Shown: one piece after another, positions 7,661 through 35,603 of the stretch
How the letters are laid out: every line of letters begins with the position of its first letter
Numbering within the stretch: position 1 is the stretch's first letter
Notes under the pieces: generated by a model
What the model was told of the DNA's origin: nothing
Database searches by the model: none
The model's input: the letters and a program-made list of their open reading frames with translations, nothing else
NCBI GenBank assembly: GCA_021413865.1
Contig: JAIOPN010000042.1
Span: forward strand, 1 to 64,000
Direction of reading: 5' to 3'
Length of the DNA: 64,000 bases
Source: Planctomycetota bacterium
GTDB taxonomy: Bacteria > Planctomycetota > Phycisphaerae > Phycisphaerales > Phycisphaeraceae
Position numbers and translations under genes: made by a program

Positions 7661-7672
7661 GCGAGGCGTCCG

Positions 7673-9130: not shown

Positions 9131-9192
9131 GCCTGCTCCTGCCGCAGGGGTGGGTGCGGCATGCGGTCGGTTGCGGTGTCACCCGAGAGGGT

Positions 9193-10263
9193 TCATCGAA
9201 CGACGTTGATGGTCCTCCAGTTCTCGACCGCGCGTGTGAACGAGCGGGCGGAGAACACCCAGACGACGCACCGTTTGCCGGCCATCTTGTCCTTGCGGTT
9301 CAGGAGCGTGATGCGCGGCGCGTTCACACCACTGCCCTTGTTTGCGACCACGTCCACCAACAGGGCGGTTTCGGCGGTCAGCTGCGCCCCCAGGTCGGCG
9401 TTGTCCGCCAGCAGGTCAACACGGTCGCCGTAAACGAGGCAATGGCTGTCGCCGATCAGGACCAACGGCGACGCACGTCGGGGGCCATCCAGCTCCGGGT
9501 CGTTGATGAACGCCCCGCCCACCTTCACCTGCCGCACCGTGAGCCGCTCTTTGGGCACGTCGGCCTTCGCGAGCAGCGCGAGGTCGCCGGTCACTTCAAC
9601 CCCCAGATCGCTGGTGCCTACCGTGACCTTAGCGGCGCCCGCGTACCAGGGCCTGCCCCTTATCAGGGCCGCGATCGTCCGGGCGACAGCCTGCTGTCCA
9701 GCGGGAGAGTAGTGGCTGTCCTGACGGCAGAAGGGGGCAACACCCTTTGCTTTCAGCTCCATGAATTCCGGCGTCATATCCACCACCGTCACGCCGCGAG
9801 CCGCGAGCGCGTCGTAGAAGCGGCGCTCCATCGCATCAAGGCGGGTTCCGCTGGGCGCAGCGAGGGGAGGCACCAACCGCTCAGAATAGATCACCACTTT
9901 CCCCGGGACCGGTACAAGGATCAGCTCGACCCCGGCCATTGCGAGGTTGTCCTTGAAGGCCACGATGGCGTCCATCGGATTGACCTGCTTGGGATTGGGT
10001 GGTTTGACGGTCCAGAAGTCGGTCTCGCAGCCGTAGTGCGCGAGTTCGTGCGGCAAAAACAACCAGTCGTCCTGCCCCCGCGTCACAGCCGCCTGCTGCT
10101 TTTCGAGCTCGGCGGCCCGCGCAGCCAGTTCTGCACGTGCCGAGCGATCACGGGTGGTTTCCTCGCCGCGTGTTCCGGTAGCTAGGACGATCAAGATCGC
10201 CAGCACTGCCCAGGCGGCGAGCGGGCGGCGGATACGCATAGAATTCGGGTAGATGTGCGGCAT
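9193..10263 (-). CDS. AlgX/AlgJ-like secreted SGNH acetyltransferase
   Basis: This exported protein of about 356 residues starts with an N-terminal hydrophobic helix (WAVLAILIVLATG). The SGNH domain shows the Asp-x-His signature DSH in CRQDSHYSPAG and a second block LIGDSHCLVYGD that holds the nucleophilic Ser. The family acetylates periplasmic polysaccharide. The start is uncertain: ATGs at 10299, 10263 and 10239 are in frame, and I prefer 10263. It is 62 bp upstream of the MBOAT gene and is probably its partner, working with the AlgJ-like protein at the operon end. Confidence 0.8.
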   Translation of the reverse strand: MPHIYPNSMRIRRPLAAWAVLAILIVLATGTRGEETTRDRSARAELAARAAELEKQQAAVTRGQDDWLFLPHELAHYGCETDFWTVKPPNPKQVNPMDAIVAFKDNLAMAGVELILVPVPGKVVIYSERLVPPLAAPSGTRLDAMERRFYDALAARGVTVVDMTPEFMELKAKGVAPFCRQDSHYSPAGQQAVARTIAALIRGRPWYAGAAKVTVGTSDLGVEVTGDLALLAKADVPKERLTVRQVKVGGAFINDPELDGPRRASPLVLIGDSHCLVYGDRVDLLADNADLGAQLTAETALLVDVVANKGSGVNAPRITLLNRKDKMAGKRCVVWVFSARSFTRAVENWRTINVVR

Positions 10264-10355
10264 GGGGACTTCTTGATCCACCACACGATGGCCGGTCATG
10301 CCCGGGTTGTGATAGGAGAGGGGTGCGGCGCGTCTTCTGACGACGACGGGTTACG

Positions 10356-19827: not shown

Positions 19828-20108
19828 GGGTGGTGGCATTGTGGGGCGGGAGGCGTGGCGGAGCAAACGGGGCGGCGTCGCGGGGCGGCCGGCGTGCTAA
19901 GGGCGGCGTCACAATGGGCCGATGCATAGTTACCGGCCTCCGGGGCGGTTGAACCAGCGGGTGAAGGGATTCACTGTTGGGCAAGCGGGCCGGACGGCGA
20001 TAAGATGGGGAAGCCATGGCGGCTCCCCGCTTTGCGGTATCTGGGGAGCGATGCCGGTCGGGCCACGGACGGAACCATCTATCGCTTGATTTGGCGGGAA
20101 CCAGACGC

Positions 20109-21584
20109 ATGTTGAAGCAGAAGCACACGGACCGGGGACGATCGGGCCGACACTCGAAGTGGGTGTTGAGCGTGGCGAGTCTCTTGGCGCTGGGGTTGGC
20201 CGGGTGTGAAATGGACTCGTGGTTCAACCAAGCGACGCTGGGTCGCTGGGAAGCCACGCCCGTGGTGCTGCCCATCCTTGACCAGATCGACCTGATCGAC
20301 GAGCTGCCCGCCAAGGTCGAGGGTTATTCCGAAGTGCTCCCCGAAGACCTGATCCCCGACGTCGCGGAATACGTGATCGGCGTGGGTGACATGGTGTCGA
20401 TCTCCGTGTTCGAGCTGCGTGCCCCCGGTTCGGATGCGGTCGAGACCCGCCGCGTGGACGAGTTGGGCATGGTTCGCCTGCCGGTAATCGGGCCGATGAA
20501 GATCACCGGCAAGACGCCCAGCCAGTTGGAAACCGAAATCGCGGCGAGCCTCAGCGAGCGGAACATCCTCAAGGATGCCACCGTCAGTGTGATCGTGCAG
20601 GAAGGTCGTCAGAAGACCTACTCGGTGATCGGCGAGGCGCAGGGCTCGGAGGCGAGCAACGTCGGCGTGTTCCAGATCCCCAAGAATGACTTCCGGATGC
20701 TCGAGGCCATCGCGCAGGCGCGCGGTGTGCCCGGCTCGACCAAGCGCATCTACGTCATCCGCGAAGTGCGACTGGATCAACCCAGGGCGACGCACGGCCC
20801 GGCCGCGGCGGGCAAGACCACAGCCGAGACGACCCCGACCGAACCGGTGAAGCTCCTTGAAGAGATCATGAAGGGCCTGGACACCGAGCCCGCGCCGATG
20901 GACGGGGCGAAGCCCGACGAAAACAAGACCAAGGCGCCCACCGCACCTGAGGCCCCACCGGGCTTGAACTCGGGGTTGGATGACGAAGATTCCCCGTGGG
21001 CTTACGTGGACGGCAAGTGGGTGCGTGTGGAACAGGGCCATGCAGCGGCGGCGACCCAGCCCGGCTCGAACCGCGTGCGGGGCGGCGCGGTGCAGCGCGT
21101 GATCGAAGTGCCCTACTCCCGCCTCATCGAAGGCGACCTGAAATACAACATCGTGATCCGCCCCGGGGACGTGATCCGCGTCCCGGCGCCGGTGGCCGGC
21201 AACGTGTTCCTCGGCGGGCAGATCGCCCGGCCCGGAACCTACGCCCTGCCCGGCGGCAGAGAGTTGACGCTCAAGCAATTGATCTTCGCCGCCGGCGGCC
21301 TCCAGGGCCTTGCTGAACCCGGCCGCATCGACCTGATCCGCCGCATCGACGACAGCCACGAGGCGACCATCCGCCTGAGCGTTAAGGCGATCTTCGACGG
21401 CACTCAGCCTGACTTTTTCCTCAAGCCTAACGATTCGCTCAATTTCGGTACGAGCTTCATCGCGTACCCCATCAGCGTGATCCGCGAAGGGTTCCGCTAT
21501 TCGTTCGGCTTCGGTTTCGTGCTCGACAAAAACTTCAGCAGCGACGTGTTCGGCAATGACAACAGTAACAACAACAACCCGTGA
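20109..21584 (+). CDS. Wza-type polysaccharide export lipoprotein
   Basis: The protein is 491 residues from ATG 20109, chosen because it places a lipoprotein signal (LLALGLAGC) near the N-terminus. A Poly_export domain follows at about 90-200 (YVIGVGDMVSISVFELR, LGMVRLPVIGPMKI), then a Pro/Lys-rich linker at about 255-340. SLBB-type beta-grasp repeats come after (YNIVIRPGDVIRVPAPV, then VFLGGQIARPGTYALPGG). This class forms the outer-membrane pore for capsule or exopolysaccharide. It is the first gene of a long plus-strand export/sorting locus. Confidence 0.87.
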   Translation: MLKQKHTDRGRSGRHSKWVLSVASLLALGLAGCEMDSWFNQATLGRWEATPVVLPILDQIDLIDELPAKVEGYSEVLPEDLIPDVAEYVIGVGDMVSISVFELRAPGSDAVETRRVDELGMVRLPVIGPMKITGKTPSQLETEIAASLSERNILKDATVSVIVQEGRQKTYSVIGEAQGSEASNVGVFQIPKNDFRMLEAIAQARGVPGSTKRIYVIREVRLDQPRATHGPAAAGKTTAETTPTEPVKLLEEIMKGLDTEPAPMDGAKPDENKTKAPTAPEAPPGLNSGLDDEDSPWAYVDGKWVRVEQGHAAAATQPGSNRVRGGAVQRVIEVPYSRLIEGDLKYNIVIRPGDVIRVPAPVAGNVFLGGQIARPGTYALPGGRELTLKQLIFAAGGLQGLAEPGRIDLIRRIDDSHEATIRLSVKAIFDGTQPDFFLKPNDSLNFGTSFIAYPISVIREGFRYSFGFGFVLDKNFSSDVFGNDNSNNNNP

Positions 21585-21805
21585 GGACACCGCCCGCCGA
21601 GATCGGTCCCTTGGGTCTGTTGGATAGCGTTCCTTGATGAGTCCCCGCTCCACGCTGAGCGTTCGGAAGTGGTTTTACCAACCGGAATGATCCGGTATGG
21701 GGTACGGCGTTCCCGGTTTATCACAGAACCACCCCGCGGGACGGCTCGTATTATTTAGTCCGTGTCCCCGGGTGTCGGCATATCGGGATAAGAGAGTCGC
21801 CGCTG

Positions 21806-23815
21806 ATGACCAGCACGTCCACGTCCAGCGCGCCAATCATGAGCCCTCGCTCAGGCGTTGGCCCCCTTGTGTCGCGCCGGGGATGGGTGTGGATCGCCCT
21901 GCTCGCCGCCGCCTTCATCGCCCTGCACTGGAACTTTGTCCTGCGCACCTACTTCATCGCGATCGGTCAATGGGGCGGCGACTGGTCGCACGCCTTGGCT
22001 GTCCCGTTCATCGCGATCTACTACATCTGCCTGAAGCGTGACGACTTGGCCGCCCTGCAACGGCGGACCTGCTGGCCCGGCCTGGCGATCCTCTTCCTGG
22101 GCATCTTCAGCTACACCTTCTGGATCGCCCCCGGCCGCAACGACATGCTCCAGGGCTATAGCATGATCCTGGGCCTCTTTGGGCTGGTGCTGTTCCTCCT
22201 GGGCCCGTCGATGATGCGCGTGCTCTGGTTCCCGATCCTCTACCTGAGCCTGGGCGTCAAAATCTCCGACCGCATCTGGGAGAACATCGCCGCCAAGCTG
22301 CAGGCCCTGGCCGCACAGACCGCCACGCTGCTACTCAACATCCTCGGTAAGGACGCGGAAGTCCACGGCACCATCATCACCCTCTACCGCGCGGCCCAGC
22401 GCGTCGGCGACCTCAACGTCGAGGAGGCCTGCGCGGGGCTCCGCATGCTCATGGCGTTCATCGCCCTGGGCGTCGCCGTCGCCTTCCTCTTTGACCGCGA
22501 GTGGTGGCAGCGGCTGACCATGGTCCTCTTCACCGTGCCCATCGCCATCGGCATCAACGTCGGCCGCGTCACCATCATGGGCCTGCTCTACTACATCAAC
22601 CCCTCGCTCTCGATGGGTGATTTCCACAAGTTCGTCGGCCTGCTCATGCTCATCCCCGCCCTGTTGCTGTTCATGTTCCTGGGATGGGTCCTCGATCGCA
22701 TCTTCATCAACGACACCCCGCCTCGCCGCGCCCAGGCAAACATCCCCGCCCCGCCAACAACCGCCGAAACCCCTGCGCGACCCGACTGGATCATCGCCGG
22801 CCTGGCGTGCGGATCGGGGCTCACACTGCTGATAGGCGGGTGCTACTTCTTGTTCCTCGCCTCCGTCAAGCCCGGATTTATGGGCGCGGCCATCTCGCTG
22901 ACCACCTCCCGTGTCGCGCTGGGCGTCGCGATTGCGGCCACGATCGCCGCCGTCGTTTTCATCCGCAGGTTCACACGGTCAGGCGACGGCTCCATGCCGG
23001 CGCCGACATCCTTTTCAGGTCGCTCGTCCGTCATCTCGACCGCCTTGGTCGGCGGGGTGCTGTTTACGAGTGTCCTGGGAATCTACGGTGTGCTGTGGGC
23101 CAACGACGTCATCCTCCACAAAGACCCGCTGCCCCTGCGCAAACAACTCTTCATGATCCCTGAGCAACTGGGCACTTGGAAGATGGTCAGCCAGGACCCG
23201 CCGCTCAGCGCCGAGACGATCGAGACTCTGGGCACCAACGAATACATCGCCCGGACCTATAACGACACCTCGCGCTCGGGTGCCGGCAGCACGGTTAAAC
23301 TGCACCTGGCTTACTACACCGGCACGCCGGACACCGTGCCCCACGTCCCCGACCGCTGCTGGGTCGCCGGCGGGATGCAGCACATGGGCCTCAGCTTCCT
23401 TCCCCTTCCCCTGCCCGCCGCCATGCTCCGCGGCGAACCCGACGGATCGATCACCGCCAATTCCAAACTCGCCGGCCCCGTACATGTCCCCTCCCGCAAC
23501 ATCGACGCCACCATCTTCACCTACGCGAGCCCGCAACACGGCGACAAACCCTCCAACGTCGTCTATTTCTTCGTCGCTAACGGCAAGTTCCTCGCCTCGC
23601 CCGATGCGGTGCGCTACGGGGGCTTCAACCCGCGCGATAAGTATGCGTTTTATTGCAAGGTCGAGATCGGCATGGCCGACGTGCCCGACCGCGACGACGC
23701 CGTCAAACACGCCGCCGCGTTCCTCTCGGCGGCGCTACCGGATATTCTGGCCTGCCTGCCCGATTGGCACGAGGTCGAAACCGGGCAGTGGCCCGTCGCC
23801 CCCGGAAAGAAATAA
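21806..23815 (+). CDS. Exosortase fused to an EpsI-like domain
   Basis: The 669-residue protein has about eight membrane segments in the first 300 residues. The exosortase triad is visible: Cys209 in VEEACAGLRML, Arg254 in INVGRVTIMG and His274 in MGDFHKFVG. Another membrane pair follows, then a soluble C-terminal region from about 440 with the EpsI/DUF3485 pattern (LGTWKMVSQDPPL, LHLAYYTGTPDTVPHVPDRCW). It would cleave the PEP-CTERM tail of exported proteins. The EpsI part is fused here; in many loci it is a separate gene. A 221-bp gap precedes it, so it may have its own promoter. Confidence 0.9.
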   Translation: MTSTSTSSAPIMSPRSGVGPLVSRRGWVWIALLAAAFIALHWNFVLRTYFIAIGQWGGDWSHALAVPFIAIYYICLKRDDLAALQRRTCWPGLAILFLGIFSYTFWIAPGRNDMLQGYSMILGLFGLVLFLLGPSMMRVLWFPILYLSLGVKISDRIWENIAAKLQALAAQTATLLLNILGKDAEVHGTIITLYRAAQRVGDLNVEEACAGLRMLMAFIALGVAVAFLFDREWWQRLTMVLFTVPIAIGINVGRVTIMGLLYYINPSLSMGDFHKFVGLLMLIPALLLFMFLGWVLDRIFINDTPPRRAQANIPAPPTTAETPARPDWIIAGLACGSGLTLLIGGCYFLFLASVKPGFMGAAISLTTSRVALGVAIAATIAAVVFIRRFTRSGDGSMPAPTSFSGRSSVISTALVGGVLFTSVLGIYGVLWANDVILHKDPLPLRKQLFMIPEQLGTWKMVSQDPPLSAETIETLGTNEYIARTYNDTSRSGAGSTVKLHLAYYTGTPDTVPHVPDRCWVAGGMQHMGLSFLPLPLPAAMLRGEPDGSITANSKLAGPVHVPSRNIDATIFTYASPQHGDKPSNVVYFFVANGKFLASPDAVRYGGFNPRDKYAFYCKVEIGMADVPDRDDAVKHAAAFLSAALPDILACLPDWHEVETGQWPVAPGKK

Positions 23816-23946: not shown

Positions 23947-26900
23947 ATGCCACGCCGCGTAAACACCGCCTTCGTCTTCGTGGTCTTCACCGTTATCGTT
24001 CTGCTCACGGCGGCGGCGGTGGGGTACTGGTATTTCAAGGTGCGGAGCAACGTCACCGAGGTGATCGCGCGCGCCGAGATGCTTGCGGCCGAGGGCAACT
24101 GGGCGCAAGCGTCGCGTGAGTACCAGCGCGCGGTGGCCAAGCGCCAGAACGACGTGGACCTCATCCTGAAATACACCGACTCCCTGGGCAAGATCACCGT
24201 GTCCGATGCGGCGACGGCGCGCGACTACTTCATCCAGATGATCAATAATTACCGTGCCGCCTCCAACGCGGACCCGTCGAATCAGGAGCCCCTCTCCAGG
24301 CTGCTGGCGCTCTACAACACCGCCGGCGAAGAACTGGGGATCAATGACGCGTGGGACAACATGTACCAACTTGCCCAGAACACTCTCGAACGGCTTCCCA
24401 ACAACCCGCTGGCGATCCGCTACCGTGGCATCGCCCAGGCCAACCGCATGCGGAAAATCGAGATCTCACCCGACGACGTCGCCCAAGCCGGCACCGATCT
24501 TGAGACCTCCCTGCAAAGCAATCCCGATGACCGCACCCTGATCATCTCCAAGGCACAGTGGAACATCATGGAGGCCACCCGCCTGGACCGGATCGGCGGG
24601 GATCCACAGCGTGCCCAACTGTTGCGCAACGAAGCCCGCAAACTCGTCACCGACGCCGTCGAAAAACACCCCGGCGATCTCCAGCGCCAAGTGGACCGCC
24701 TAGCCATCCTCCGCAACCTGCGCGACATGGACGAGGTCCGCAAGACCGCCGCAGCGATGGAAAAAGAGCTGCTTGCCAAGCCCAACCCTGAATACGTTAT
24801 CTCCGTCGCCGAAGCCCTGGTGGATACCGATCGTGACGAGACCAAGCAGGCGGTCAGCCCCAACTCCGCCGTCCTGCAACGCGTCGAAAAGCTCATCCGC
24901 GCCACCCTTGACGCGAATCCCAATGACGTCCGGCTCCAGGTCGTGCTTGCGCAACTGATCGCCCGGACCAATCCCAAGGACTCGCTGGCGATGCTGAAGA
25001 CCGCCAGCGAAGCCAAAGTGAGCGGCACCGTTATTGAATACATGCGCATCGCCAATATCACGACCGCCGCGAACTTGCGGTACTGCGAGCAGTTGGTCTC
25101 CCAAGCCGAACTCACCACCAACCCGTCCGAGCAGGCCAACATCGTCAATCTCGCCCGTGAACGTGTAAACCGGCTGGCCACAGGGCTGGGCGACGTCGCC
25201 CCTGTCTTCCTGCTCCAAGGCCGCATCCTGCTCCTCAACAAAAAACCACTGGAGGCGTTGGACAAGCTCGATAAGGCCAGCAACCTGTACCGTGACAACT
25301 CGCCCGAGGCTCTCTTTTTCTCCGCCAGGGCACGGGCAATGCTTAACGAGCAAGGAGCCGCCGCCGACCGGCTCAAACGACTGATCGAGTTGCGGCCTAA
25401 CTTCAAGCCGGCGTATTACGAGTTGGCCCGCATCTACCTGGCCATGAAACAGAACGACGATGCCCGCCGCATCATTAACTCGCTCTTGCTCGATAACCCC
25501 GATGACACCGACGCCCAACGGCTCCACGCCCTCTGGCTGACCCAGACCGACCAGAAAGAGCGCGCGCTGCAGGTCTTCAAGGACAAACTCAACCCCAAGG
25601 ACAACCCCGAGATCACTGTAGCGATGGCGCGGCTCTACGCCGAGACTCACAGACCGGCGGAAGCCATCGCCCTGCTCGAAGAGCAGATGAAACACTCGCC
25701 AACCGATCTCATGGTGCTACAGGAACTGGTTCACCTCACAGACGATGTGAAAAAACGCAAGGAGTACGTCGCCTCGGCGCGCAAAGCGGGTGCAACAGGT
25801 CAGGAACTGGACCTGATTGAGTCCCAGTTAGATAACAACAAGGACGCCCCTATCGCTGTTGTCAAACGCATGATCGAACAAGAAAAAGACCCGGTCCGCC
25901 GCGCGATGAGCCTCTACTCGTTTTATATGCAGGTGGATCGCGTCGCCGAGGCTCGTGCACAACTCGCCGAGGCCGCCAAACTCAACCCCGATGATCAGCA
26001 GGTTCTCGACACACAATTCCAGATCGCGATCCAGGAAAACGACTTGAACACGGCTGACGCCTTGGCGTCCAAGGCCGCCAAGCTCAACCTCGATCAGGCT
26101 CAAGGCTTGTTCTATCAGGGCCGACTAGAAATGGCCCGTCGCCGACCCGAGCAGGCCGCGGCCGTGTTCCGCCGAGCCACCACTGCACGCCCTATTTACT
26201 CCGACGGCTGGCGATTGCTGGCGGACGCTTTAGCGATGAGCGGAGACGCCGGCGGCGCCATCGCGGCGTATGAGAACGCCATCAAACAGCGTCCCGACAA
26301 CGCCGACGCCTACCGGGGCCGCGCCGCCTGCTTTGACTTCCAAGGGCAACACGCCAAAGCTCTGGCCGACCTCCAGCGTGCCTACGACCTCAGCCCCGGA
26401 AACGCCGCCATTGCGACTATTTATCTTACCTATGAAGAGAACCACGGCGATAAACAACGGGCCTTGGCGATCCGCCAGGAAATTGCCAAGTCCAACCCTG
26501 AGAACCTGACCAACCGTCGCATCCTGGCGTCGTTGCTGGCCAAGCTCAAGCGCACGGATGAGGCCGACGCGATCATCACCGCGCTCCTCAAGGAGAAACC
26601 GGACGACCTGGCCAATGTCGCCGCCGCTGCCGCAGTCAAACGTGACGAGGGCAAGACCAAAGAAGGCCGCGACATCATCCAGAACTACGTCAACGCCAAG
26701 GGTGACAAAGCCACCACCGACGATTGGGTTCTCCTGGCACGCTACCTGCGTGATCTCGGGGAATGGGACTCTTCACTGGCGGCATACCGACAGGCCACGG
26801 CCATCGAAGACCCCAAACAACGCCCCGCGTCGCGAGAGATGGCGGACCTGCTCTTCGATCTCCGCAAGTTCCCCGAAGCGATCGAAAGCTACAAGAAGCT

Positions 26901-28413
26901 CTATGAGCAGAACCCCTACGACAAACGCACCGCTTTGCGCCTCGTGGATTCGTTGCTCCAGAACGGACAGGTTGACCCCGCGAAGGAGACATTGACCCGC
27001 ATCAACCGGGACTTCAAACCCGACGCCAGTTCACTCCTGCTGGAAGCCGTCATCGCCCGTCTCAAGCACGACGTCAACGTCGCGATGGAGAAACTGGCTG
27101 AAGCCGAGAAGATACAGCCCAACCTCGCATCGATCTTTCTCGAGCGTGCAACCCTCCTGTCCACCGACCCGTCCCACGACAACGAGGTGTTCAAGAACCT
27201 GCAGAAGGCACTTGAACTTCAACCATCATTCACCCAGGCCCGTCTTGCGCTGGCGGCCGCCTACTCCCGCCGCGGCGACACCAACGAGGCCATCCACGAG
27301 TTGAGCGTCCTGATCGACCGCGAACCGCGCAACACCCAGGCACGCCTCCAACTGGTGGACCTCTACATGTCCACGGGGCAGTTCACACCTCTTCGCGGAC
27401 TCCTGGAGGAATCCATCGCCCTGTTCCCACGCGAAGCCATGTGGTTACAACTCCAGGCCAATCTCGCCTTCAAGCAGAACAAGCCGGACCTAGGCCAACA
27501 AAAGCTCCGCGAGGCGTACGCACTCTCCAAGGCGCCCCAGTTGCTTGCGCAACTGGCGACGTCCTACATCGAGGCCAAGAAATACCGCGACGCGATCAAC
27601 ACCATCAACACCGACCCCGATGCGCTCTCGAAGTACGCGTTGATGCAGGCAATCCTTGGTCGAGCGCTGTGGGGCAATAATCAGATCCCGGAAGCCAAGG
27701 CCGCATTCACACGTGCCATCGAGATCAGCCGCGGCCCCAACGATGTCTTCGTGATCTCCACGCAAATCGCCAAGACCCAAGGTACCCAGGCGACCATCGA
27801 ACTGCTCGAGCCGCTGGCCACCGGTGAGCGACGCGACACGGTGCAGCTCGCAATCGCCGGAATGTGGCTGGATCTCAAGACGACCGATAAGGCGCTGGCG
27901 ATCCTCCGCCAACTCGACGCCCGCATGGCCAAAAATGATCCGCTCCGTGAATTAGTGGACCGGCAATTGGCCGTGGCCTTGCAGCTCAATTCCTCCCCCG
28001 AGGAAGCTCGCGTTGTTTATCAGCGCATGGTCGACCGTAACCCCAATGACGTCGAAGCGCTGAATAACCTGGCCTACACACTTGCCGAAGACCTGAATAA
28101 CGCCAAAGATGCCTTGCCTTTGGCCCAACGCGCGGTCAAACTAAGTGGAGACAGCGCCCCAGTCCTCGACACCTTAGGCTGGGTGCAGTTCCGCGCCGGC
28201 CAAAAAGACGAGGCCTACGATACGTTGAGAAAGAGCGTGGACCGTAAACCATTGGCAATCAACACTTACCACTTGGCGATGGTTCACTTCGCACGCGGAG
28301 ATTCGATTCCAGGCCGTAAGATGTTGGATTCAGCCAAGCGTTTGGCCGAACAGAATAACGAGACCGACCTGCTCCAAAAGATCAACGGAAAGTTGAAGGA
28401 GTTGGGACCCTGA
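23947..28413 (+). CDS. Giant TPR-repeat protein (PrsT-like)
   Basis: The 1488-residue protein has one N-terminal membrane anchor (FVFVVFTVIVLLTAAAVG) and then tandem TPR-like helices almost to the end, with repeats such as FKPAYYELARIYLAMKQ and PDNADAYRGRAACFDFQ. PEP-CTERM/exosortase loci often carry a large TPR lipoprotein called PrsT. This one is similar in position and architecture but lacks a lipobox. It probably scaffolds the export or sorting machinery on the periplasmic side. It lies 131 bp after the exosortase gene and 19 bp before the Wzz/kinase gene. Confidence 0.8.
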   Translation: MPRRVNTAFVFVVFTVIVLLTAAAVGYWYFKVRSNVTEVIARAEMLAAEGNWAQASREYQRAVAKRQNDVDLILKYTDSLGKITVSDAATARDYFIQMINNYRAASNADPSNQEPLSRLLALYNTAGEELGINDAWDNMYQLAQNTLERLPNNPLAIRYRGIAQANRMRKIEISPDDVAQAGTDLETSLQSNPDDRTLIISKAQWNIMEATRLDRIGGDPQRAQLLRNEARKLVTDAVEKHPGDLQRQVDRLAILRNLRDMDEVRKTAAAMEKELLAKPNPEYVISVAEALVDTDRDETKQAVSPNSAVLQRVEKLIRATLDANPNDVRLQVVLAQLIARTNPKDSLAMLKTASEAKVSGTVIEYMRIANITTAANLRYCEQLVSQAELTTNPSEQANIVNLARERVNRLATGLGDVAPVFLLQGRILLLNKKPLEALDKLDKASNLYRDNSPEALFFSARARAMLNEQGAAADRLKRLIELRPNFKPAYYELARIYLAMKQNDDARRIINSLLLDNPDDTDAQRLHALWLTQTDQKERALQVFKDKLNPKDNPEITVAMARLYAETHRPAEAIALLEEQMKHSPTDLMVLQELVHLTDDVKKRKEYVASARKAGATGQELDLIESQLDNNKDAPIAVVKRMIEQEKDPVRRAMSLYSFYMQVDRVAEARAQLAEAAKLNPDDQQVLDTQFQIAIQENDLNTADALASKAAKLNLDQAQGLFYQGRLEMARRRPEQAAAVFRRATTARPIYSDGWRLLADALAMSGDAGGAIAAYENAIKQRPDNADAYRGRAACFDFQGQHAKALADLQRAYDLSPGNAAIATIYLTYEENHGDKQRALAIRQEIAKSNPENLTNRRILASLLAKLKRTDEADAIITALLKEKPDDLANVAAAAAVKRDEGKTKEGRDIIQNYVNAKGDKATTDDWVLLARYLRDLGEWDSSLAAYRQATAIEDPKQRPASREMADLLFDLRKFPEAIESYKKLYEQNPYDKRTALRLVDSLLQNGQVDPAKETLTRINRDFKPDASSLLLEAVIARLKHDVNVAMEKLAEAEKIQPNLASIFLERATLLSTDPSHDNEVFKNLQKALELQPSFTQARLALAAAYSRRGDTNEAIHELSVLIDREPRNTQARLQLVDLYMSTGQFTPLRGLLEESIALFPREAMWLQLQANLAFKQNKPDLGQQKLREAYALSKAPQLLAQLATSYIEAKKYRDAINTINTDPDALSKYALMQAILGRALWGNNQIPEAKAAFTRAIEISRGPNDVFVISTQIAKTQGTQATIELLEPLATGERRDTVQLAIAGMWLDLKTTDKALAILRQLDARMAKNDPLRELVDRQLAVALQLNSSPEEARVVYQRMVDRNPNDVEALNNLAYTLAEDLNNAKDALPLAQRAVKLSGDSAPVLDTLGWVQFRAGQKDEAYDTLRKSVDRKPLAINTYHLAMVHFARGDSIPGRKMLDSAKRLAEQNNETDLLQKINGKLKELGP

Positions 28414-28432: not shown

Positions 28433-30688
28433 ATGACAGCCAATCCCCTGACCCCCATGACGATGGGCGGCGGCGCGGTTAGTACCGTGCACGTACCGTC
28501 CACCGCCCCCAGCCGGTTTACGCCGCTGGACCCGTTCCGCGTCCTGCGACAGTACGCACGACTCCTGATCCTCGCCGCCGTGGTTGGCGTTGCGCTGGGC
28601 CTGGGTATCTATTTCCTCCTGCTCCGCCACGCACCCGAGTTCACCTCCACCGCTCAGATCCTGGTCACGCCTCCGCCGACCAGGCCCGAGGACATGCCCG
28701 ATCCCTTCGCCGTGCGCGGCGACCTGGGCACCATGATCCAGAACCAGCTCGTCATGATCCGCTCAGACGACCTGCTCCAGGAAGCGCTCAAGCGCGACGT
28801 GGTGCGCCAAACCAAATGGTTCTCCTCGTTCGAGGACGTCCGCGGCCGCACCTTGAACCTGCGCGAGAACCTCTCCGCCTTCCAACTCCGCGGCACGACG
28901 ATCATCGCCGTCACCCTCACCGGCCGTCACAAGGCGGACCTGCAGAACATCCTTGACACCATTGTCGATATCTACCTGACGCAGACCCGCCTGCGTGAAG
29001 ACCTGCGCGGCGGCGACATCCGCCGCGTGTTTCTCGAAGAACGCAATCGTGCCGACATCGAAATCGCCCGCATCCAGGAACAGCTCAAACAGTTCCGGTC
29101 GGAAAACGACCTGTCGAGCGTTTTCGCCTCCAACAACGACGCGGCGATCACCTATGAAAACCTAGCGCGTCAGCGCCCCAACGTCGAGCAGGCCGCCATG
29201 CAGGCCCGCGACATGTACCAGAGCCTGCTGCAGGCCCAGCGCGAGGGCCGCATCAACGCCAGCCCCGCCGATACTGCCGCCGCCCAGGCCGACCCAAGCG
29301 TCGCCGGGCGCGACGAGCGGCTCCGCACCATGCGCGAGAGCCGCAAGTTCATGCTCAACCACTTGGGTGAACGGCACAACACCATCCGCGACCTCGACGA
29401 GCAGATCGCCATCGTGGAACAGGAGCGTGGCCGCGAACTCGACCGCATCCTGCGCGCCCGCCAGGCCGTCCAGCTCGAAGAATCCAAGAAGGCGCTGGAC
29501 GCCATCGAGAGCCAGTTGGCGTCGTTCCAGGCGAAGTTCGACGAGGCCCGCACGCGTATGCGCGACCTCACGCAGAAGCTCGAGGAAGCCAAACGCATCG
29601 AGACCCTGGTTGACACCAGCACCAAGCGCCGCGAGCGTTACGACGACCTGCTCAACAACCTGCGCATCAAGTCCACCCGCCCCGACAGCCTGGGTGTAAC
29701 CCGCCAGCTCAGCGCCACGCAGCCCGAAATGACCTCGCCCAAGCTCGGCGGTATCCTCTCGATGTCCACCATGATCGTCATGGGCATCACGTTCTTCCTG
29801 GTGTTCCTCAAGGAGCTCCTGGACCAGCGCATCAAGAGCCCCGCTGACATCCGCCTCCTGCCCGGAGCCGTGCTGCTGGGCGTCCTCCCCGACGCCGGTG
29901 AAGACCCCTCAGGCCCGACCAAGGTCGAACGCGTCGTCGCCGCCCACCCCATGGGCCTGCTCGCCGAGTCAATCCGCCAGATCCGCACCGTCCTGCTCTC
30001 CAAGGCCGACCCACGCGGCTACAAGACCCTCATGATCGTCGGCGCCACTCCCGAGTCCGGCGTCTCCGCCATCACCAGCAACCTGGCCATCAGCCTCGCC
30101 CTCAACCAGCGCGAGGTCCTCGTCATCGACGCCAACTACCGCCGCCCCAACCAGCACCGCCTCTTCAACACGCCCAACCGCCCCGGCCTGATCGAGGTGC
30201 TCAACGGCAGCGCCACCGCCGAGGAAGCCCTCTTCCACAACAAAGACCTCAACGTGGACGTGCTGCCCGCCGGCAACACCCCCGACGCACCGCCCGAGCT
30301 GCTCGAAGGCACCGCCTTCCGCAACCTGCTCACCGAGTTCGAGCGCCGCTACGACTTCATCCTCATCGACGCACCGCCGATCCTCGTCGCCGCCGACAGC
30401 CTCCTGCTCGCCAAGCGCGTTGACGCCACCGTCGTCGTCGCCCGGGCCATGGTCGACAAGCGCGGCATCGTCGCCCGCCTCCTGCGCCAGCTCGACGGCC
30501 ACCGCGCCGAAACACTGGGCCTGGTCCTCAACGGCGTCCGCGCCTCGGTCGGCGGGTACTTCCGCGAGAACTACCAGTCGTTCTACCGCTACCGCAAGGC
30601 CAGCATCGACGCCGCCGCCCGCAAGGCCTCCATGGACCGCGGCGCGTCCCGCGACGAGTCACGCGACCTCAAGCCCGACGAGATCTAA
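28433..30688 (+). CDS. Wzz/BY-kinase-like fusion with a degenerate Walker A
   Basis: The 751-residue protein has Wzz-type membrane segments at about 45-65 and 445-465 flanking a coiled-coil periplasmic domain (ERNRADIEIARIQEQLKQF, RMRDLTQKLEEAKRIE), then a cytosolic ATPase domain like Wzc/CapB kinases. The P-loop reads GATPESGVSAITS (537-549). The conserved Lys is replaced by Val544, and Walker A' is DAN (Asp566, Asn568) instead of DxD. Walker B (FILIDAPP) is intact, and a C-terminal tyrosine cluster (YFRENYQSFYRYR) is kept. It regulates chain length, but ATP-dependent autophosphorylation may be lost. Confidence 0.85.
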   Translation: MTANPLTPMTMGGGAVSTVHVPSTAPSRFTPLDPFRVLRQYARLLILAAVVGVALGLGIYFLLLRHAPEFTSTAQILVTPPPTRPEDMPDPFAVRGDLGTMIQNQLVMIRSDDLLQEALKRDVVRQTKWFSSFEDVRGRTLNLRENLSAFQLRGTTIIAVTLTGRHKADLQNILDTIVDIYLTQTRLREDLRGGDIRRVFLEERNRADIEIARIQEQLKQFRSENDLSSVFASNNDAAITYENLARQRPNVEQAAMQARDMYQSLLQAQREGRINASPADTAAAQADPSVAGRDERLRTMRESRKFMLNHLGERHNTIRDLDEQIAIVEQERGRELDRILRARQAVQLEESKKALDAIESQLASFQAKFDEARTRMRDLTQKLEEAKRIETLVDTSTKRRERYDDLLNNLRIKSTRPDSLGVTRQLSATQPEMTSPKLGGILSMSTMIVMGITFFLVFLKELLDQRIKSPADIRLLPGAVLLGVLPDAGEDPSGPTKVERVVAAHPMGLLAESIRQIRTVLLSKADPRGYKTLMIVGATPESGVSAITSNLAISLALNQREVLVIDANYRRPNQHRLFNTPNRPGLIEVLNGSATAEEALFHNKDLNVDVLPAGNTPDAPPELLEGTAFRNLLTEFERRYDFILIDAPPILVAADSLLLAKRVDATVVVARAMVDKRGIVARLLRQLDGHRAETLGLVLNGVRASVGGYFRENYQSFYRYRKASIDAAARKASMDRGASRDESRDLKPDEI

Positions 30689-30718: not shown

Positions 30719-31720
30719 ATGCAGTGCTTGCCGCCCACGACGCTCATCACCGGTGGCGCGGGTTTCATCGGCTCGCACCTCGCGCAGCTCCTCGCCTCGC
30801 AGGGCCAACGCCTCCTCATCATTGACGACCTCTCCACGGGCCGCACCGCCAACCTCACCGCCCTCCCCGCCGGATCGGCCACGTTCATCCACGCACGCCT
30901 CTCCGACGCGCTCACCCGGCAGCCAAGCCTGCTGGACGGCGTCCGCGAGGTCTACCACCTGGCCGCCACCGTCGGCGTCGGCCGCGTCATCGACGACCCG
31001 GCCGCGATGATCCGCAACAACATCCACGAGACCGCCTCCCTCCTCGACGCCTGCGATGGCCGCGGCGTCACCCTCCTGCTCGCCTCCTCCAGCGAGGTGT
31101 ACGGCCCCTCCGAGGCCATGCCCCTCTCCGAAGAGGCCCAACTCCTCTTCGGCCCCACGACCTCGCCACGCTGGAGCTACGGCATGACCAAGGCGCTCGA
31201 CGAGCACCTCGCCCTGGCGCACCACGCCCGCGGCGGCCTCCGTGCCGTCGTCGCCCGCCTCTTCAACACCATCGGACCCCGCCAAGTCGGGCAGTACGGC
31301 ATGGTGGTGCCGCGGTTTGTCCGGGCCGCGGTGGAGGGCCGCGACATCGAGGTCCACGGCGACGGCCAACAGACCCGCTCCTTCTGCGACGTGCGCGACG
31401 TGACCGCCGCGATGACCGCGCTCGTCGGCGGCGCCCGCTGCCACGGCAAGGTCTTCAACGTCGGCTCCGACGACGAGATCACCATCGACGAGCTGGCCGA
31501 CCGCGTCATCGCCCTGGCCGCGAGCCCGTCCCGCAAGCGCCACGTGCCCTACGAGCAGGTGTACGGCCCGGCGTTCGAGGACCCGCGCCGCCGCGTGCCC
31601 GACCTCTCCCGCATCCGCCGCGCGATCGGATATTCTCCACGCCACACGCTCTCGGATACCCTGACCGAACTCGTCGCCCTGGCCCGCCGCGAAAAACCCG
31701 TCGCCATACCCAACGCATGA
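30719..31720 (+). CDS. NAD-dependent sugar-nucleotide epimerase/dehydratase
   Basis: The 333-residue extended SDR has GGAGFIGSHLA at the N-terminus, a Ser in LLASSSEVYG and YGMTK as the catalytic Tyr-xxx-Lys. The pattern FNTIGPRQVGQYGMVVPRFV is typical of UDP-glucuronate decarboxylase/UDP-glucose epimerase-type enzymes. It presumably makes a precursor for the exopolysaccharide. A good Shine-Dalgarno (AGGAAGG) lies just before the ATG at 30719. Its stop overlaps the next start by 4 bp (ATGA). Confidence 0.88.
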   Translation: MQCLPPTTLITGGAGFIGSHLAQLLASQGQRLLIIDDLSTGRTANLTALPAGSATFIHARLSDALTRQPSLLDGVREVYHLAATVGVGRVIDDPAAMIRNNIHETASLLDACDGRGVTLLLASSSEVYGPSEAMPLSEEAQLLFGPTTSPRWSYGMTKALDEHLALAHHARGGLRAVVARLFNTIGPRQVGQYGMVVPRFVRAAVEGRDIEVHGDGQQTRSFCDVRDVTAAMTALVGGARCHGKVFNVGSDDEITIDELADRVIALAASPSRKRHVPYEQVYGPAFEDPRRRVPDLSRIRRAIGYSPRHTLSDTLTELVALARREKPVAIPNA

Positions 31721-33036
31721 CGCCCACCACGACCCAACCCGCCGCGGAGCTCGGACTGGCGAACGTCGTCTCGCCGCTGATGGGCGTCTTCTTCGTCGCC
31801 TTCTTCTGCTCCCTCCTGCTCACGCCCCTCATGCGCTGGCTGGCCATCCGCAACGGCATCGTCGATTGGCCCGACTTCAAGCGCAAGAGCCACGTCGAGC
31901 CCATCGCCTACCTGGGCGGTCTGGCGATCTTCGTCAGTTGGCTCGCCGGCGTCTTCCTCTGCTACTTCATCAAGCCCCACTTCATCGGCACCGCGTTGGG
32001 GCACATGGACCACATCAGCTTTCCCATCACCGTCGCCCTGGGCGCCGCGGTCATCACCCTCACCGGCCTGTTTGACGACGTCTATGGCCTGAGCCCGCGC
32101 GTCAAGATTGGCGGCCAGTTCATCACCGCTGCCATGCTCGTGTACCAATCCGACCTGGGCCCACGCCTGGCGCGCGACCTGCTCTCGGGCGTCGGCCTCG
32201 ACGTGCCCCCGCACCTGCAATGGGTCCCCTACACCCTGGGCGCCATCCTCGTCGCTATCTTCGTCGTCGGCGGGTGCAACTGCCTCAACCTCATGGACGG
32301 CTTGGACGGCCTGGCCGCCGGCGTCAGCGGCATCGCCGCCATGGGCTTCCTCGCCATCGCCACTCTCCTGGCCTTCGACTGCCTCGACCCCGCCAACGCG
32401 AGCAGCCCCACCGACCTCCTGGCTAACCCCGTCCGCATCGTCATGTGCCTGGCCATCCTCGGGGCCGTGCTCGGGTTCCTCCCCTACAACTTCAACCCCG
32501 CCAACATCTTCATGGGTGACGCCGGCTCGCTCCTCCTGGGCTACCTGAGCGTCTCGACCATCCTGATGTTCGCCGAGACCCACGGCCGCGGGCCGCTCAT
32601 GGTCATGGCCGCACTCATCGTCTTCGCGCTCCCCATCGCCGATACCACCCTCGCCATCTTCCGCCGCAAGATCCGCGGCATGCCCATCTTCAGCCCCGAC
32701 AACCAGCACCTGCACCACCAGCTCCGCCGCGTGGGCCTCTCGGTCAAACGCTCCGTGCTCGTCCTCTACGCCATGGCCGCCGGCTTCGCCGTCATCGGCA
32801 TCGTCGTCTCCCGCCTCCAGTGGCGCTACGTCATCGCCGTCTTCCTGGTCATCTTCGGCTTCATCCTCGTCACCGCCTACAAGGCCGCCCACCGCATCGC
32901 CATCACCGAACGCCTCCGCGAGACCCTCGACAAAGACAAACCCGTCGCCATGTCCGCTCCCGCCAATTCCAACGGCAACGGCCACACCGATGCCGCGACG
33001 CCCGCCACGCAGACACAGCCCGGCCCCGATCGGTAG
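31717..33036 (+). CDS. WecA/MraY-like undecaprenyl-P sugar-1-P transferase
   Basis: The 439-residue polytopic membrane protein has about ten segments. Conserved cytoplasmic motifs are GLFDDVYGL (DD pair), NLMDGLDGLAAG, FNPANIFMGDAGS and the His-rich FSPDNQHLHHQLRR loop of WecA relatives. It transfers a sugar-1-phosphate from UDP-sugar to undecaprenyl phosphate, starting repeat-unit synthesis. Translation is coupled to the epimerase by a 4-bp overlap. A hydrophilic Asn/Thr-rich tail of about 35 residues is unusual but not disabling. Confidence 0.9.
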   Translation: MTPTTTQPAAELGLANVVSPLMGVFFVAFFCSLLLTPLMRWLAIRNGIVDWPDFKRKSHVEPIAYLGGLAIFVSWLAGVFLCYFIKPHFIGTALGHMDHISFPITVALGAAVITLTGLFDDVYGLSPRVKIGGQFITAAMLVYQSDLGPRLARDLLSGVGLDVPPHLQWVPYTLGAILVAIFVVGGCNCLNLMDGLDGLAAGVSGIAAMGFLAIATLLAFDCLDPANASSPTDLLANPVRIVMCLAILGAVLGFLPYNFNPANIFMGDAGSLLLGYLSVSTILMFAETHGRGPLMVMAALIVFALPIADTTLAIFRRKIRGMPIFSPDNQHLHHQLRRVGLSVKRSVLVLYAMAAGFAVIGIVVSRLQWRYVIAVFLVIFGFILVTAYKAAHRIAITERLRETLDKDKPVAMSAPANSNGNGHTDAATPATQTQPGPDR

Positions 33037-33707: not shown

Positions 33708-33805
33708 GTGTTCGGCTCAATCAAGCGCCCTTTGGCGTGGACATCCCCAGAACGGGGCTGACCAGTCCACCGCCGGTGTCGCTGCCGCCCCTCAGGAGTT
33801 TGCCT

Positions 33806-34645
33806 ATGGCCTCTCTCGTGAAAGACCTCGTCGAAGCGGGCATCCATTTTGGTCACCGCACGACCAACTGGAACCCGAAGATGGCCCCCTACATCTTCGA
33901 CAAGAAGAACAAGATCCACATCATCGACATCAAGGCCACCATCAAGGGCCTGCTCCTGGCCCGTAAGTTCGTCACCCGCACCGTCGCGGGCGGCAAGGAC
34001 GTCCTCTTCGTCGGCACCAAGCGCCAGGCGCGGGCCTGCATCGAGAAGTACGTCAAAGACACCAACATGCCCTGGGTCACCGAGCGCTGGCTCGGCGGCA
34101 CCCTCACCAACTTCCGCACCATCCGCGAGCGCCTCAAGCGGCTCGAAGAGCTCGAGGGCCTGGAGACCACCGGCGCCATCAACAGCTACTCCAAGAAGAT
34201 GGAGTCCCAGATCCGCCGCGAGAAGAATAAGATCCTGCGCAACCTCGACGGCCTGCGCGTGATGACCAAGCTCCCCGGGGCGATGGTCGTCATCGACGTC
34301 AACCGCGAGGTCAACGCCGTCAAGGAAGCCCGCAAGCTGGGTATCCCGACGGTCTGCCTGATCGACACCGACTCCGACCCCGACTACGCCGACATCCCCA
34401 TCCCCGGCAACGACGACGCGATGCGCGCCATCGAGGTCGTGGTGCAGCAGCTCTGCGCCGCCGTGATGGAGGGCAAGTCGGCCCGCGCCGCCGCGACCGG
34501 TGAGAACAAGGACGACAACCTCGCCGCCGGCGACAAGTCGGACCGCCAGCGTCGCAGCAGCCGCGCCCGCTTCCGCGCCGACGACGCCACCCCGGTCGCC
34601 GACGAGGCGCCCGCCGCCGCGGCCGCCGAAGGGGGCAAGGCCTGA
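33806..34645 (+). CDS. rpsB: 30S ribosomal protein S2
   Basis: The protein is 279 residues from ATG 33806, preceded by CAGGAG at a good distance; the ORF upstream to 33737 is leader. Family motifs are clear: VEAGIHFGHRTTNWNPKM, PWVTERWLGGTLTNF, GAMVVIDVNRE and VCLIDTDSDPDYADIPIPGND. The core ends near residue 230. A further 45 or so residues form an Ala/Asp/Arg-rich tail (AAATGENKDDNLAAG) typical of high-GC bacteria. It is followed by tsf, the common rpsB-tsf order. Confidence 0.97.
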   Translation: MASLVKDLVEAGIHFGHRTTNWNPKMAPYIFDKKNKIHIIDIKATIKGLLLARKFVTRTVAGGKDVLFVGTKRQARACIEKYVKDTNMPWVTERWLGGTLTNFRTIRERLKRLEELEGLETTGAINSYSKKMESQIRREKNKILRNLDGLRVMTKLPGAMVVIDVNREVNAVKEARKLGIPTVCLIDTDSDPDYADIPIPGNDDAMRAIEVVVQQLCAAVMEGKSARAAATGENKDDNLAAGDKSDRQRRSSRARFRADDATPVADEAPAAAAAEGGKA

Positions 34646-34659
34646 GGCGCACGCGCCTC
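34644..34659 (+). terminator. Intercistronic hairpin between rpsB and tsf
   Basis: GAGGCGC (34644-34650) and GCGCCTC (34653-34659) form a 7-bp stem starting within the rpsB stop codon. No T-run follows, so it may attenuate or stabilise the transcript and is unlikely to end it. Confidence 0.3.
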
Positions 34660-34787
34660 GCCCAACCACCCGGACCCAGCCCCCGCATCCGCGCGGTCGG
34701 TCCCTGTCATCCATCAACCGTTCCGTTGTTTTAGACGCTTCGTTTTTGACCAACCGCTGATTCCCCCGCTTCCACAGGAGTTTTCCC

Positions 34788-35603
34788 ATGGCGATCACCG
34801 CCAAGGACGTGAATGACCTTCGCCAGCGCACCGGCCTGGGCATGATGGAGTGCAAGCAGGCGCTCTCCGAGGCCAACGGCGACATGCAGGCCGCCATCGA
34901 CCTCATCCGCACCAAGGGCCTGGCCAAGATGGACGGCCGGACCGACCGCGCCTCCGCCGAGGGCCGCGTCGCCGCCGCCGTCACCCCCGACGGCTCCAAG
35001 GGCGTCCTCGTCGAGGTCAACACCGAGACGGACTTCACCGCCAAGACCGATTCCTTCCTGGCCATGGTCGCCAAGGTCGCCGCCGAGGCCCTCAAGCAGC
35101 CCGCCGGCGACGCCCAGAAGACCGACGCCATGCAGCACGCCATCGACGACGTCCGCCTGACCACCAAGGAGAACGTCCAGTTCGCCCGCGGCAGGGTCGC
35201 CGGCGGCCCCGGCCGGAAAATCGGCTCCTACGTCCACCACAACGGCAAGCTCGGCGTCGTCATTGAGATCGAGGGCGACGCCCCGCCCGAACTGCTCAAG
35301 GAACTCTGCCAGCACATCGCCGCCGCCTCGCCCGTGCCCCTGGGCGTGAGCGAAGCGGATGTCCCCGCCGACGTCGTCGCCAAGGAGCGTGAGATCGCCA
35401 AGGCCCAAGCCATCGAGCAGGGCAAGCCCGCCGCCATCGCCGAGAAGATGGTCGAAGGCAAGATCCGCAAGTTCTACGAGGAGACCGTCCTCACCCAACA
35501 GCTCCTGGTCACCCGGGCCGAAGAAAAGAAGAAGGTCAAGGACGCCCTTCCCAAAGGCGCGACGATCAAGTCCTTCATCCGATATCAGCTCGGCGCGAAG
35601 TAA
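34788..35603 (+). CDS. tsf: Elongation factor Ts
   Basis: This 271-residue protein has the N-terminal UBA-type domain (LRQRTGLGMMECKQAL), the conserved TDFTAKTD region (VEVNTETDFTAKTD) and dimerisation-domain blocks GKIGS-like (GRKIGSYVHHNGKLGVV) and EKMVEGKIRKFYEE. It is the guanine-nucleotide exchange factor of EF-Tu. A Shine-Dalgarno CACAGGAG precedes the ATG. It is cotranscribed with rpsB and followed by a good terminator. Confidence 0.97.
   Translation: MAITAKDVNDLRQRTGLGMMECKQALSEANGDMQAAIDLIRTKGLAKMDGRTDRASAEGRVAAAVTPDGSKGVLVEVNTETDFTAKTDSFLAMVAKVAAEALKQPAGDAQKTDAMQHAIDDVRLTTKENVQFARGRVAGGPGRKIGSYVHHNGKLGVVIEIEGDAPPELLKELCQHIAAASPVPLGVSEADVPADVVAKEREIAKAQAIEQGKPAAIAEKMVEGKIRKFYEETVLTQQLLVTRAEEKKKVKDALPKGATIKSFIRYQLGAK

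Follow-up and report, generated by a model that had tools for sequence, protein, structure and literature searches.

Gene content of the locus

The window, by which we mean the whole stretch of 64,000 nucleotides that was analysed, carries on its plus strand a run of genes among which lies the one studied here, which encodes a Wzz/BY-pseudokinase fusion. The genes of this run and the features within the fusion protein are as follows, with counts given for orthologs in the window's order unless stated otherwise.

20016-21584, plus strand: OPX/Wza-like exporter (Poly_export + SLBB, by family search), upstream of the other genes
21806-23815, plus strand: exosortase with an EpsI-like (DUF3485) C-terminal part (PF09721, E = 3.7e-48; PF11984; TIGR02602, 116.5 bits, over cut-off)
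23947-28413, plus strand: PrsT-like TPR protein (TIGR02917, 268.5 bits, below the cut-off of 312.2)
28433-30688, plus strand: Wzz/BY-pseudokinase fusion (PCP-2a, Wzc-like), an open frame of 751 aa (TIGR01007; Wzc structure 7nhr)
28568-28624, plus strand: first membrane helix of the fusion protein, residues 46-64 (hydropathy peak)
29753-29809, plus strand: second membrane helix, residues 441-459 (hydropathy peak)
29966-29986, plus strand: EX2RX2R ring-interface motif, E512/R515/R518 (E in 88/88, first R in 88/88, second R in 68/88)
30038-30088, plus strand: Walker A loop VGATPESGVSAITSNLA, read from the sequence, with V544 instead of Lys at 30062-30064
30116-30148, plus strand: Walker A' VLVIDANYRRP, from the sequence, with N568 (AAC) instead of the second Asp at 30134-30136
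30350-30382, plus strand: Walker B YDFILIDAPPI, from the sequence, with D646 kept at 30368-30370
30551-30595, plus strand: tail GGYFRENYQSFYRYR, residues 707-721 (Gly708 in 147/147, Y709 in 145/147 and Y720 in 147/147 orthologs of the order and class)
30719-31720, plus strand: NAD-dependent sugar epimerase/dehydratase (PF01370, E = 2.4e-52)
31717-33036, plus strand: WecA-like undecaprenyl-phosphate sugar-phosphate transferase (PF00953, E = 2.7e-32; TIGR02380 below cut-off)

Judged by gene order and family matches, the pseudokinase gene sits in an exosortase operon, and the window's genome has 21 PEP-CTERM matches. The scan took in frames of 150 aa or longer, and a minus-strand frame at 20079-21653 was set aside as a gene, having no family match and lying where the OPX gene runs on the plus strand (20016-21584). 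Scanning genome contigs with the pseudokinase protein as query gave one relative. Genes read by eye as rpsB and tsf come after the operon (33737-35603), and the window's rpsB and tsf find matches near the ortholog in 10/58 and 8/58 loci of the order, respectively. A minus-strand cluster (5933-10299), some 10 kb away from this operon, consists of two AlgX-like SGNH proteins (5933-7660 and 9193-10299) and an MBOAT protein (7673-9130) and resembles polysaccharide O-acetylation genes.

A Wzc-like fusion with a changed catalytic site

With a P-loop domain fused to a Wzz part that is flanked by two membrane helices, the protein has the architecture of a PCP-2a. It is Wzc homology that carries the case for this assignment, since the Pfam Wzz score is below its cut-off (19.8 vs 25.5 bits). 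Wzc structures are the best solved relatives (7nhr, E = 9.4e-33 over residues 364-717, phmmer), and the homology includes a further, weak stretch at residues 150-228. The C-terminal domain scores 123.5 bits against TIGR01007, 'polysaccharide biosynthesis tyrosine autokinase' (cut-off 108.05), and the protein stays well under the curated cut-off of TIGR03018, the XrtA-associated tyrosine autokinase (114.1 vs 230.65 bits), and under that of TIGR03029, EpsG (114.8 vs 313.8 bits). An AlphaFold2 model of the domain, built from a two-row alignment (the window protein and the ortholog L040), reached a pLDDT of 52.2 and a pTM of 0.53 and was too poor for use.

The catalytic site differs from that of an active BY-kinase at two positions, both of which had been pointed out in a sequence-only reading of the window and both of which hold in the sequence and in the phmmer alignment with 7nhr. 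In Walker A, G543 (30059-30061) is followed by V544 (GTC, 30062-30064) and S545 (30065-30067), and V544 aligns with the mutated Lys position (Met) of 7nhr, a K540M mutant. In Walker A', N568 aligns with the second Asp of the 7nhr motif IDADLRK, which is D564 by alignment numbering. The window protein is without the Walker A Lys and has DAN in Walker A' where an active BY-kinase has two Asp (DxD), and it retains the Walker B Asp. Homologous to BY-kinases and lacking catalytic residues, it classes by sequence as a BY pseudokinase, although not a stand-alone one of the EcpK/HfsB kind, its domain being fused in one 751-aa chain.

Conservation in the order, the class and the phylum

Comparison across planctomycetes, which had been proposed together with these substitutions, was run and shows the change to be conserved. 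Searching 151 genomes (the window's own, the same family and the same order) with the window protein gave a match at E <= 1e-10 in 145, and motifs were read in the orthologs of 88 of these, made up of the top 30 matches and then chosen sets, with 56 matching genomes left out; two duplicates (L002, the same gene as L010, and L042, the same as L040) were removed before counting. Lys is absent from the Walker A site in 88/88, where the residue is T in 32, A in 23, V in 18, S in 8, C in 4, G in 2 and I in 1. In Walker A', Asn occupies the second position in 88/88, and at the first position 83 orthologs have Asp, 4 have Glu and one has Gly; the Walker B Asp is kept throughout (88/88). Because no Lys occurs within two columns of the site in any of the 88 (window included), a sequencing error at 30059-30067, on which the substitution might have been blamed, is excluded. 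In one further genome (G063, L058), the match read is a canonical kinase that has the Lys, the Asp and a tail rich in Tyr, and no pseudokinase ortholog was seen there. Genomes of the order also contain a second, more divergent Wzc-like set (L222-L229; frames of 749-882 aa), in which Lys and DxD are present in 8/8 read.

In other orders of the class, 59 orthologs were read among the best-scoring matches. All 59 have Asn at the second Walker A' position, and their Lys site holds K in 39, R in 13, A in 5 and T in 2. Since these were the best scorers, 28 further class genomes, mostly of lower-scoring families, were taken. A match at E <= 1e-90 was obtained in 27, and the top-ranking one carries Asn in 27/27, with K (17) or R (10) at the Lys site. 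For the other orders combined, the Lys site is thus K in 56, R in 23, A in 5 and T in 2 (n = 86), and Asn is found in 174/174 orthologs read in the class. In the remaining genome (G178), there was no match at E <= 1e-90 (the best profile match being 2.3e-41) and no pseudokinase ortholog was seen, and three extra matches in two of the 27 genomes keep K and D and resemble canonical paralogs. K and D are likewise kept in 40/40 relatives read from other classes of the phylum (20/20 + 20/20 among the matches listed), with Asn at Walker B in one of the first 20. As read in these sequences, the Asn is class-wide and the intermediates at the Lys site are still living, with Lys kept, replaced by Arg, or lost.

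The genomic setting is conserved as well. Neighbours were counted by running the window's proteins in tblastn against those loci that have longer flanks, 58 of the order's 88 and 59 of the class. An exosortase match is present in 56/58 order loci, 52/59 class loci and 0/20 canonical-kinase loci. The query was the exosortase of the window itself (E <= 1e-5), and 6/20 canonical loci are shorter than 13 kb, so that divergent or distant exosortases could escape there. The nine loci without a match have at most ~5.3 kb upstream of the gene, and the usual midpoint distance is 6-8 kb; by these distances, the orthologs are exosortase-linked wherever the upstream flank is long enough. Near the ortholog lie a PrsT-like gene (57/58 order and 49/59 class loci), a WecA-like gene (51/58 and 0/59) and the epimerase (33/58 and 9/59). 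Seven class loci (L085, L090, L146, L147, L148, L172 and L174) are rearranged, with the exosortase directly upstream and midpoints 1.4-1.6 kb apart, and tblastn with the window's query left the PrsT-like gene unmatched in these seven.

Kept residues and a reshaped tail

Several features around the changed positions are kept. The EX2RX2R motif is complete in the window protein, and its second Arg, variable in the order, is present in 53/59 orthologs of other orders. G543 and D646 are invariant in 147/147 orthologs (88 from the order and 59 from the class), which bears out the earlier statement that Walker B is retained, and the Lys site is followed by Ser or Thr in 147/147. The 27 further class orthologs have E512 in 26 (Asp in 1), R515 in 27, G543 in 27, Ser/Thr after the Lys site in 26 (Gly in 1) and D646 in 25 (Asn in 1, a gap or not readable in 1). 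Two orthologs depart from the kept features, namely L242 (Walker B Asn, and Gly after its Arg) and L266 (Asp in place of E512). N700, which aligns with an Asn of Wzc, is kept in 84/88 order, 49/59 class and 16/27 lower-scoring orthologs; we take it as the putative counterpart of Asn719 of BceF, which is reported to contact ADP (PMC8394532), a correspondence that runs through the Wzc alignment.

The tyrosine tail had been described as kept, which holds in part. Y709 and Y720 are nearly fixed, also in the 27 further class orthologs (25 each, gap 2 each; Gly708 in 24, with Asn in 1 and a gap in 2). Of the four tyrosines in the tail of the window protein (709, 714, 718 and 720), Y714 and Y718 vary among orthologs, and the median number of tail tyrosines is 3 in the order (n = 88) and 4 in the class vs 7 in other classes (20 Lys-bearing relatives). 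On this comparison, the tail has been remodelled, being thinned to a few fixed tyrosines, and not just retained.

Order of the losses

Before a tree was made from 124 rows (39 from the order, 59 from the class, 20 from other classes and 6 paralogs), the core columns of Walker A and A' were removed. The order sample is 39 of the 88 rows, and paralogs from the window's own genome were used in the tree only, with L007 (= L004) left out. All 98 rows with Asn fall into a single clade (SH-aLRT 99), and the window's order likewise makes up a single clade (SH-aLRT 100). The tree was built quickly, its support values are limited to SH-aLRT, its outgroup is not cleanly one-sided and some rows are long; the changes it requires (one for Asp/Asn, seven for the Lys/Arg/other state) are parsimony counts, which give no direction. 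Since Asp is found in every non-class row read, Asn-first is the simplest reading: the Asn probably arose first and once, and the Lys was relaxed later and repeatedly.

Other kinases and phosphatases in the genomes

Besides the pseudokinase, the window's genome has two more BY-kinases over the TIGR01007 cut-off, both Lys-bearing, on contigs C10 and C66, each of them ~3.2-3.7 kb from a separate OPX match. These two kinases (L001 and L003) have Glu for the first Walker A' Asp (IEADLRK and IEADLRL), and a Wzc-like paralog on C30 of the same genome (L004) has Lys and DCE in Walker A'. Three LMW-PTP matches were found in the genome, none on C47, the window's contig. Among 11 genomes, the pseudokinase is the only profile match at E <= 1e-8 in four (G061, G065, G069 and G101), which belong to families f2 and f3, none to the window's family f1; the four f1 genomes searched have 5-9 profile matches each, MinD-like proteins among them. 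A TIGR01007 single-match count at E <= 1e-20 was dropped, as that threshold misses weaker Wzc-like paralogs, for example the one on C30 of the window's genome (G000).

What the fusion protein may do

The fact that the gene is kept intact despite its changed catalytic site suggests that the protein works there without being a kinase. The idea that BY-kinases need the Walker A Lys for ATP binding is too strong, since CapA1B2(K55M) is reported to have crystallised with ADP-Mg with no nucleotide added (PMC3795738) and Wzc K540M to have been solved as a homogeneous octamer with ADP and Mg (PMC8285477). The Lys is, by these reports, dispensable for the ring and for ADP; it is needed for autophosphorylation, and not strictly for ADP binding. 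Wzc octamers are said to form unphosphorylated and to be destabilised by the phosphorylated tail, with cycling held to be required (PMC11986026, PMC8285477). Both phosphorylation and dephosphorylation are reported as required for E. coli Wzc, and E. coli phosphatase-null mutants, whose capsule is drastically reduced, phenocopy kinase-null ones (PMC11986026). A dead Wzc must therefore be somehow compensated.

We favour, with a probability of roughly 0.68, the reading of a Wzc-type polysaccharide co-polymerase in which the BY-kinase part of the fusion is now a structural pseudokinase and acts as a phosphorylation-independent ring scaffold. Behind it stand the fused architecture, the clade-fixed losses, the kept Walker B Asp, the E and first R of the ring motif, the near-fixed tail and the operon, together with the four genomes that gave no second profile match at E <= 1e-8 and the reported precedent of EcpK. 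As for the earlier suggestion of a pseudokinase, it gains from an old and fixed loss of Lys in the order and from a fixed Asn in the class, and the lack of kinase activity is what we infer from these. In mechanistic terms, the protein (i) would no longer autophosphorylate, (ii) would still form, through its P-loop domain, a ring base holding the Wzz part in an oligomer, (iii) would contact the neighbouring subunit by a tail that is fixed in sequence and no longer rich in Tyr and (iv) would let the polysaccharide of the exosortase locus be polymerised and exported with the OPX protein (20016) without a tyrosine phosphorylation cycle. A role in chain length, also proposed earlier, and in export would fit such a scaffold. 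Several points run counter to the scaffold: cycling is reported as required in E. coli, the second Arg of EX2RX2R is variable (see the list above), the two near-fixed tail tyrosines also fit phosphorylation by another enzyme, 79/86 orthologs of other orders have a basic residue at the Lys site, single orthologs (L242 and L266) depart from the kept features, and the pseudokinase precedents EcpK and HfsB are separate proteins.

A more specific and tentative version is that a single Asp to Asn change made the kinase a self-clasping ring, in which Tyr720 would be a permanent, unphosphorylated plug at the neighbour's Asn568, the unneeded Lys then being lost several times. The octamer would thereby be held without a phosphate cycle through a putative Tyr720-Asn568 docking. 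What points that way is Asn568 in every class ortholog read, Tyr720 in 172/172 readable ones (two being gapped) and the order of losses in the tree. If true, a Wzc-type co-polymerase could be operated independently of phosphorylation, and this mode would be linked to exosortase loci.

The alternatives to a structural pseudokinase differ in what they make of the kept residues. Phosphorylation in trans, by a Lys-bearing BY-kinase of the genome or by another kinase, would let the cycle survive via an outside enzyme, and the near-fixed Y709 and Y720, the Lys-bearing kinases on C10 and C66, the three LMW-PTP matches and the further profile matches in the four f1 genomes would all fit. We nevertheless regard it as unlikely: the C10 and C66 kinases are each near their own OPX match, as if serving other pathways, no LMW-PTP match lies on the window's contig, and four of 11 genomes are without a second match at E <= 1e-8, although none of these is of family f1 and the search was made with a BY-kinase profile. 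On the latter evidence, the need for a separate kinase, which the sequence-only reading had offered as its other option, is not a general one; in family f1, whose four searched genomes have further matches and where the window's own genome has two Lys-bearing BY-kinases, it may apply. Distinctly improbable, to our mind, is a MinD-like nucleotide-binding switch, in which ATP would be bound or slowly hydrolysed via the remaining loop and Walker B, with no tyrosine phosphorylation. G543, the Ser/Thr after the Lys site and D646 never vary among the 147 orthologs, N700 is frequent in the order and among the 59, CapB2 K55M and Wzc K540M are reported to bind ADP, and the Lys site is basic in 79/86 orthologs of other orders, so that those may still handle nucleotide. 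Against this, the site is never basic in the window's order (0/88), which would be costly for a hydrolytic switch, and N700 falls away in many of the lower-scoring orthologs.

A kinase that is atypical yet still active, relying on some other Lys or Arg, would find candidates in the Walker A' Arg residues (R570 in 87/88 and R571 in 79/88 in the order), and yet it is hard to credit: the position of D564, reported as an active-site reference in Wzc dynamics (PMC11986026), is Asn in 174/174 orthologs read in the class, and no Lys lies within two columns of the site in the order (88/88). Finally, a sequencing error or a decaying pseudogene in one genome has next to no chance. Nothing was found in its favour (the assembly is in 67 contigs), and it is ruled out by the same losses in orthologs of 87 other genomes, with conserved surroundings.

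In the current model, Wzc-type proteins act by tyrosine phosphorylation cycles, and here is a bacterial class that keeps one with a changed catalytic site. The series in which Lys is kept, is Arg or is lost represents natural material for asking what a kinase domain does other than phosphorylate. There is also a warning about misannotation, as the domain passes the threshold of TIGR01007, a 'tyrosine autokinase' model, and automatic pipelines are likely to label this pseudokinase a kinase.

Comparison with known systems

BY pseudokinases, fused ones included, are already known from published reports, and the protein of this clade is therefore a variant. In the titles and abstract openings on BY-kinases, Wzc, PCP-2, exosortases and planctomycetes among the matches listed, this clade's pseudokinase is undescribed, and a text search of one review (PMC12220298) did not find the word 'pseudokinase'.

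The closest solved system is E. coli Wzc (K540M; 7NHR and 7NIH), with which the window protein shares the Wzz part, the two membrane helices, the fused P-loop domain, the Walker B Asp and the ring motif, and the engineered K540M octamer resembles at the Lys site what is the natural state here. Wzc, however, has the Lys, the DxD, a Tyr-rich tail and phosphorylation cycling, whereas the window protein is without the Lys and the second Asp, and its tail tyrosines are few and nearly fixed. TIGR03018 and EpsG (TIGR03029) are BY-kinase domain families named for exosortase/EPS systems, but they are named as kinases and the window protein is far below both cut-offs.

Among pseudokinases, EcpK of Myxococcus xanthus, which is reported to matter for the synthesis of EPS and has been proposed as a scaffold, and HfsB of Caulobacter belong to polysaccharide pathways, are homologous to kinases but lack catalytic residues, and are proposed to act by contact (PMC12004946). 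Both are stand-alone, and the reports are that EcpK has none of the three Walker motifs and no tail tyrosines and that HfsB lacks the catalytic residues and the Tyr-rich tail (PMC12004946), whereas the window's domain is fused and changed at only two of the catalytic positions examined. Nearer in design are the fused PCP-2/BY pseudokinases (SMc01795 and others, Cuthbertson et al. via PMC12004946; PssP2 of Rhizobium, PMC4182512), which join a PCP part and a dead kinase in one polypeptide. In PssP2, the Walker A, A' and B motifs and the Y-cluster are reported to be missing (PMC4182512); the window protein, compared with PssP2 and SMc01795 by description only, keeps Walker B and most of the P-loop, and differs from such fused proteins in an Asn fixed in the class as read and in a locus that encodes an exosortase. 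What is new here, as far as the sequences read extend, is a fused BY pseudokinase that is class-wide and exosortase-linked, with two catalytic positions changed, a fixed Asn and living intermediates.
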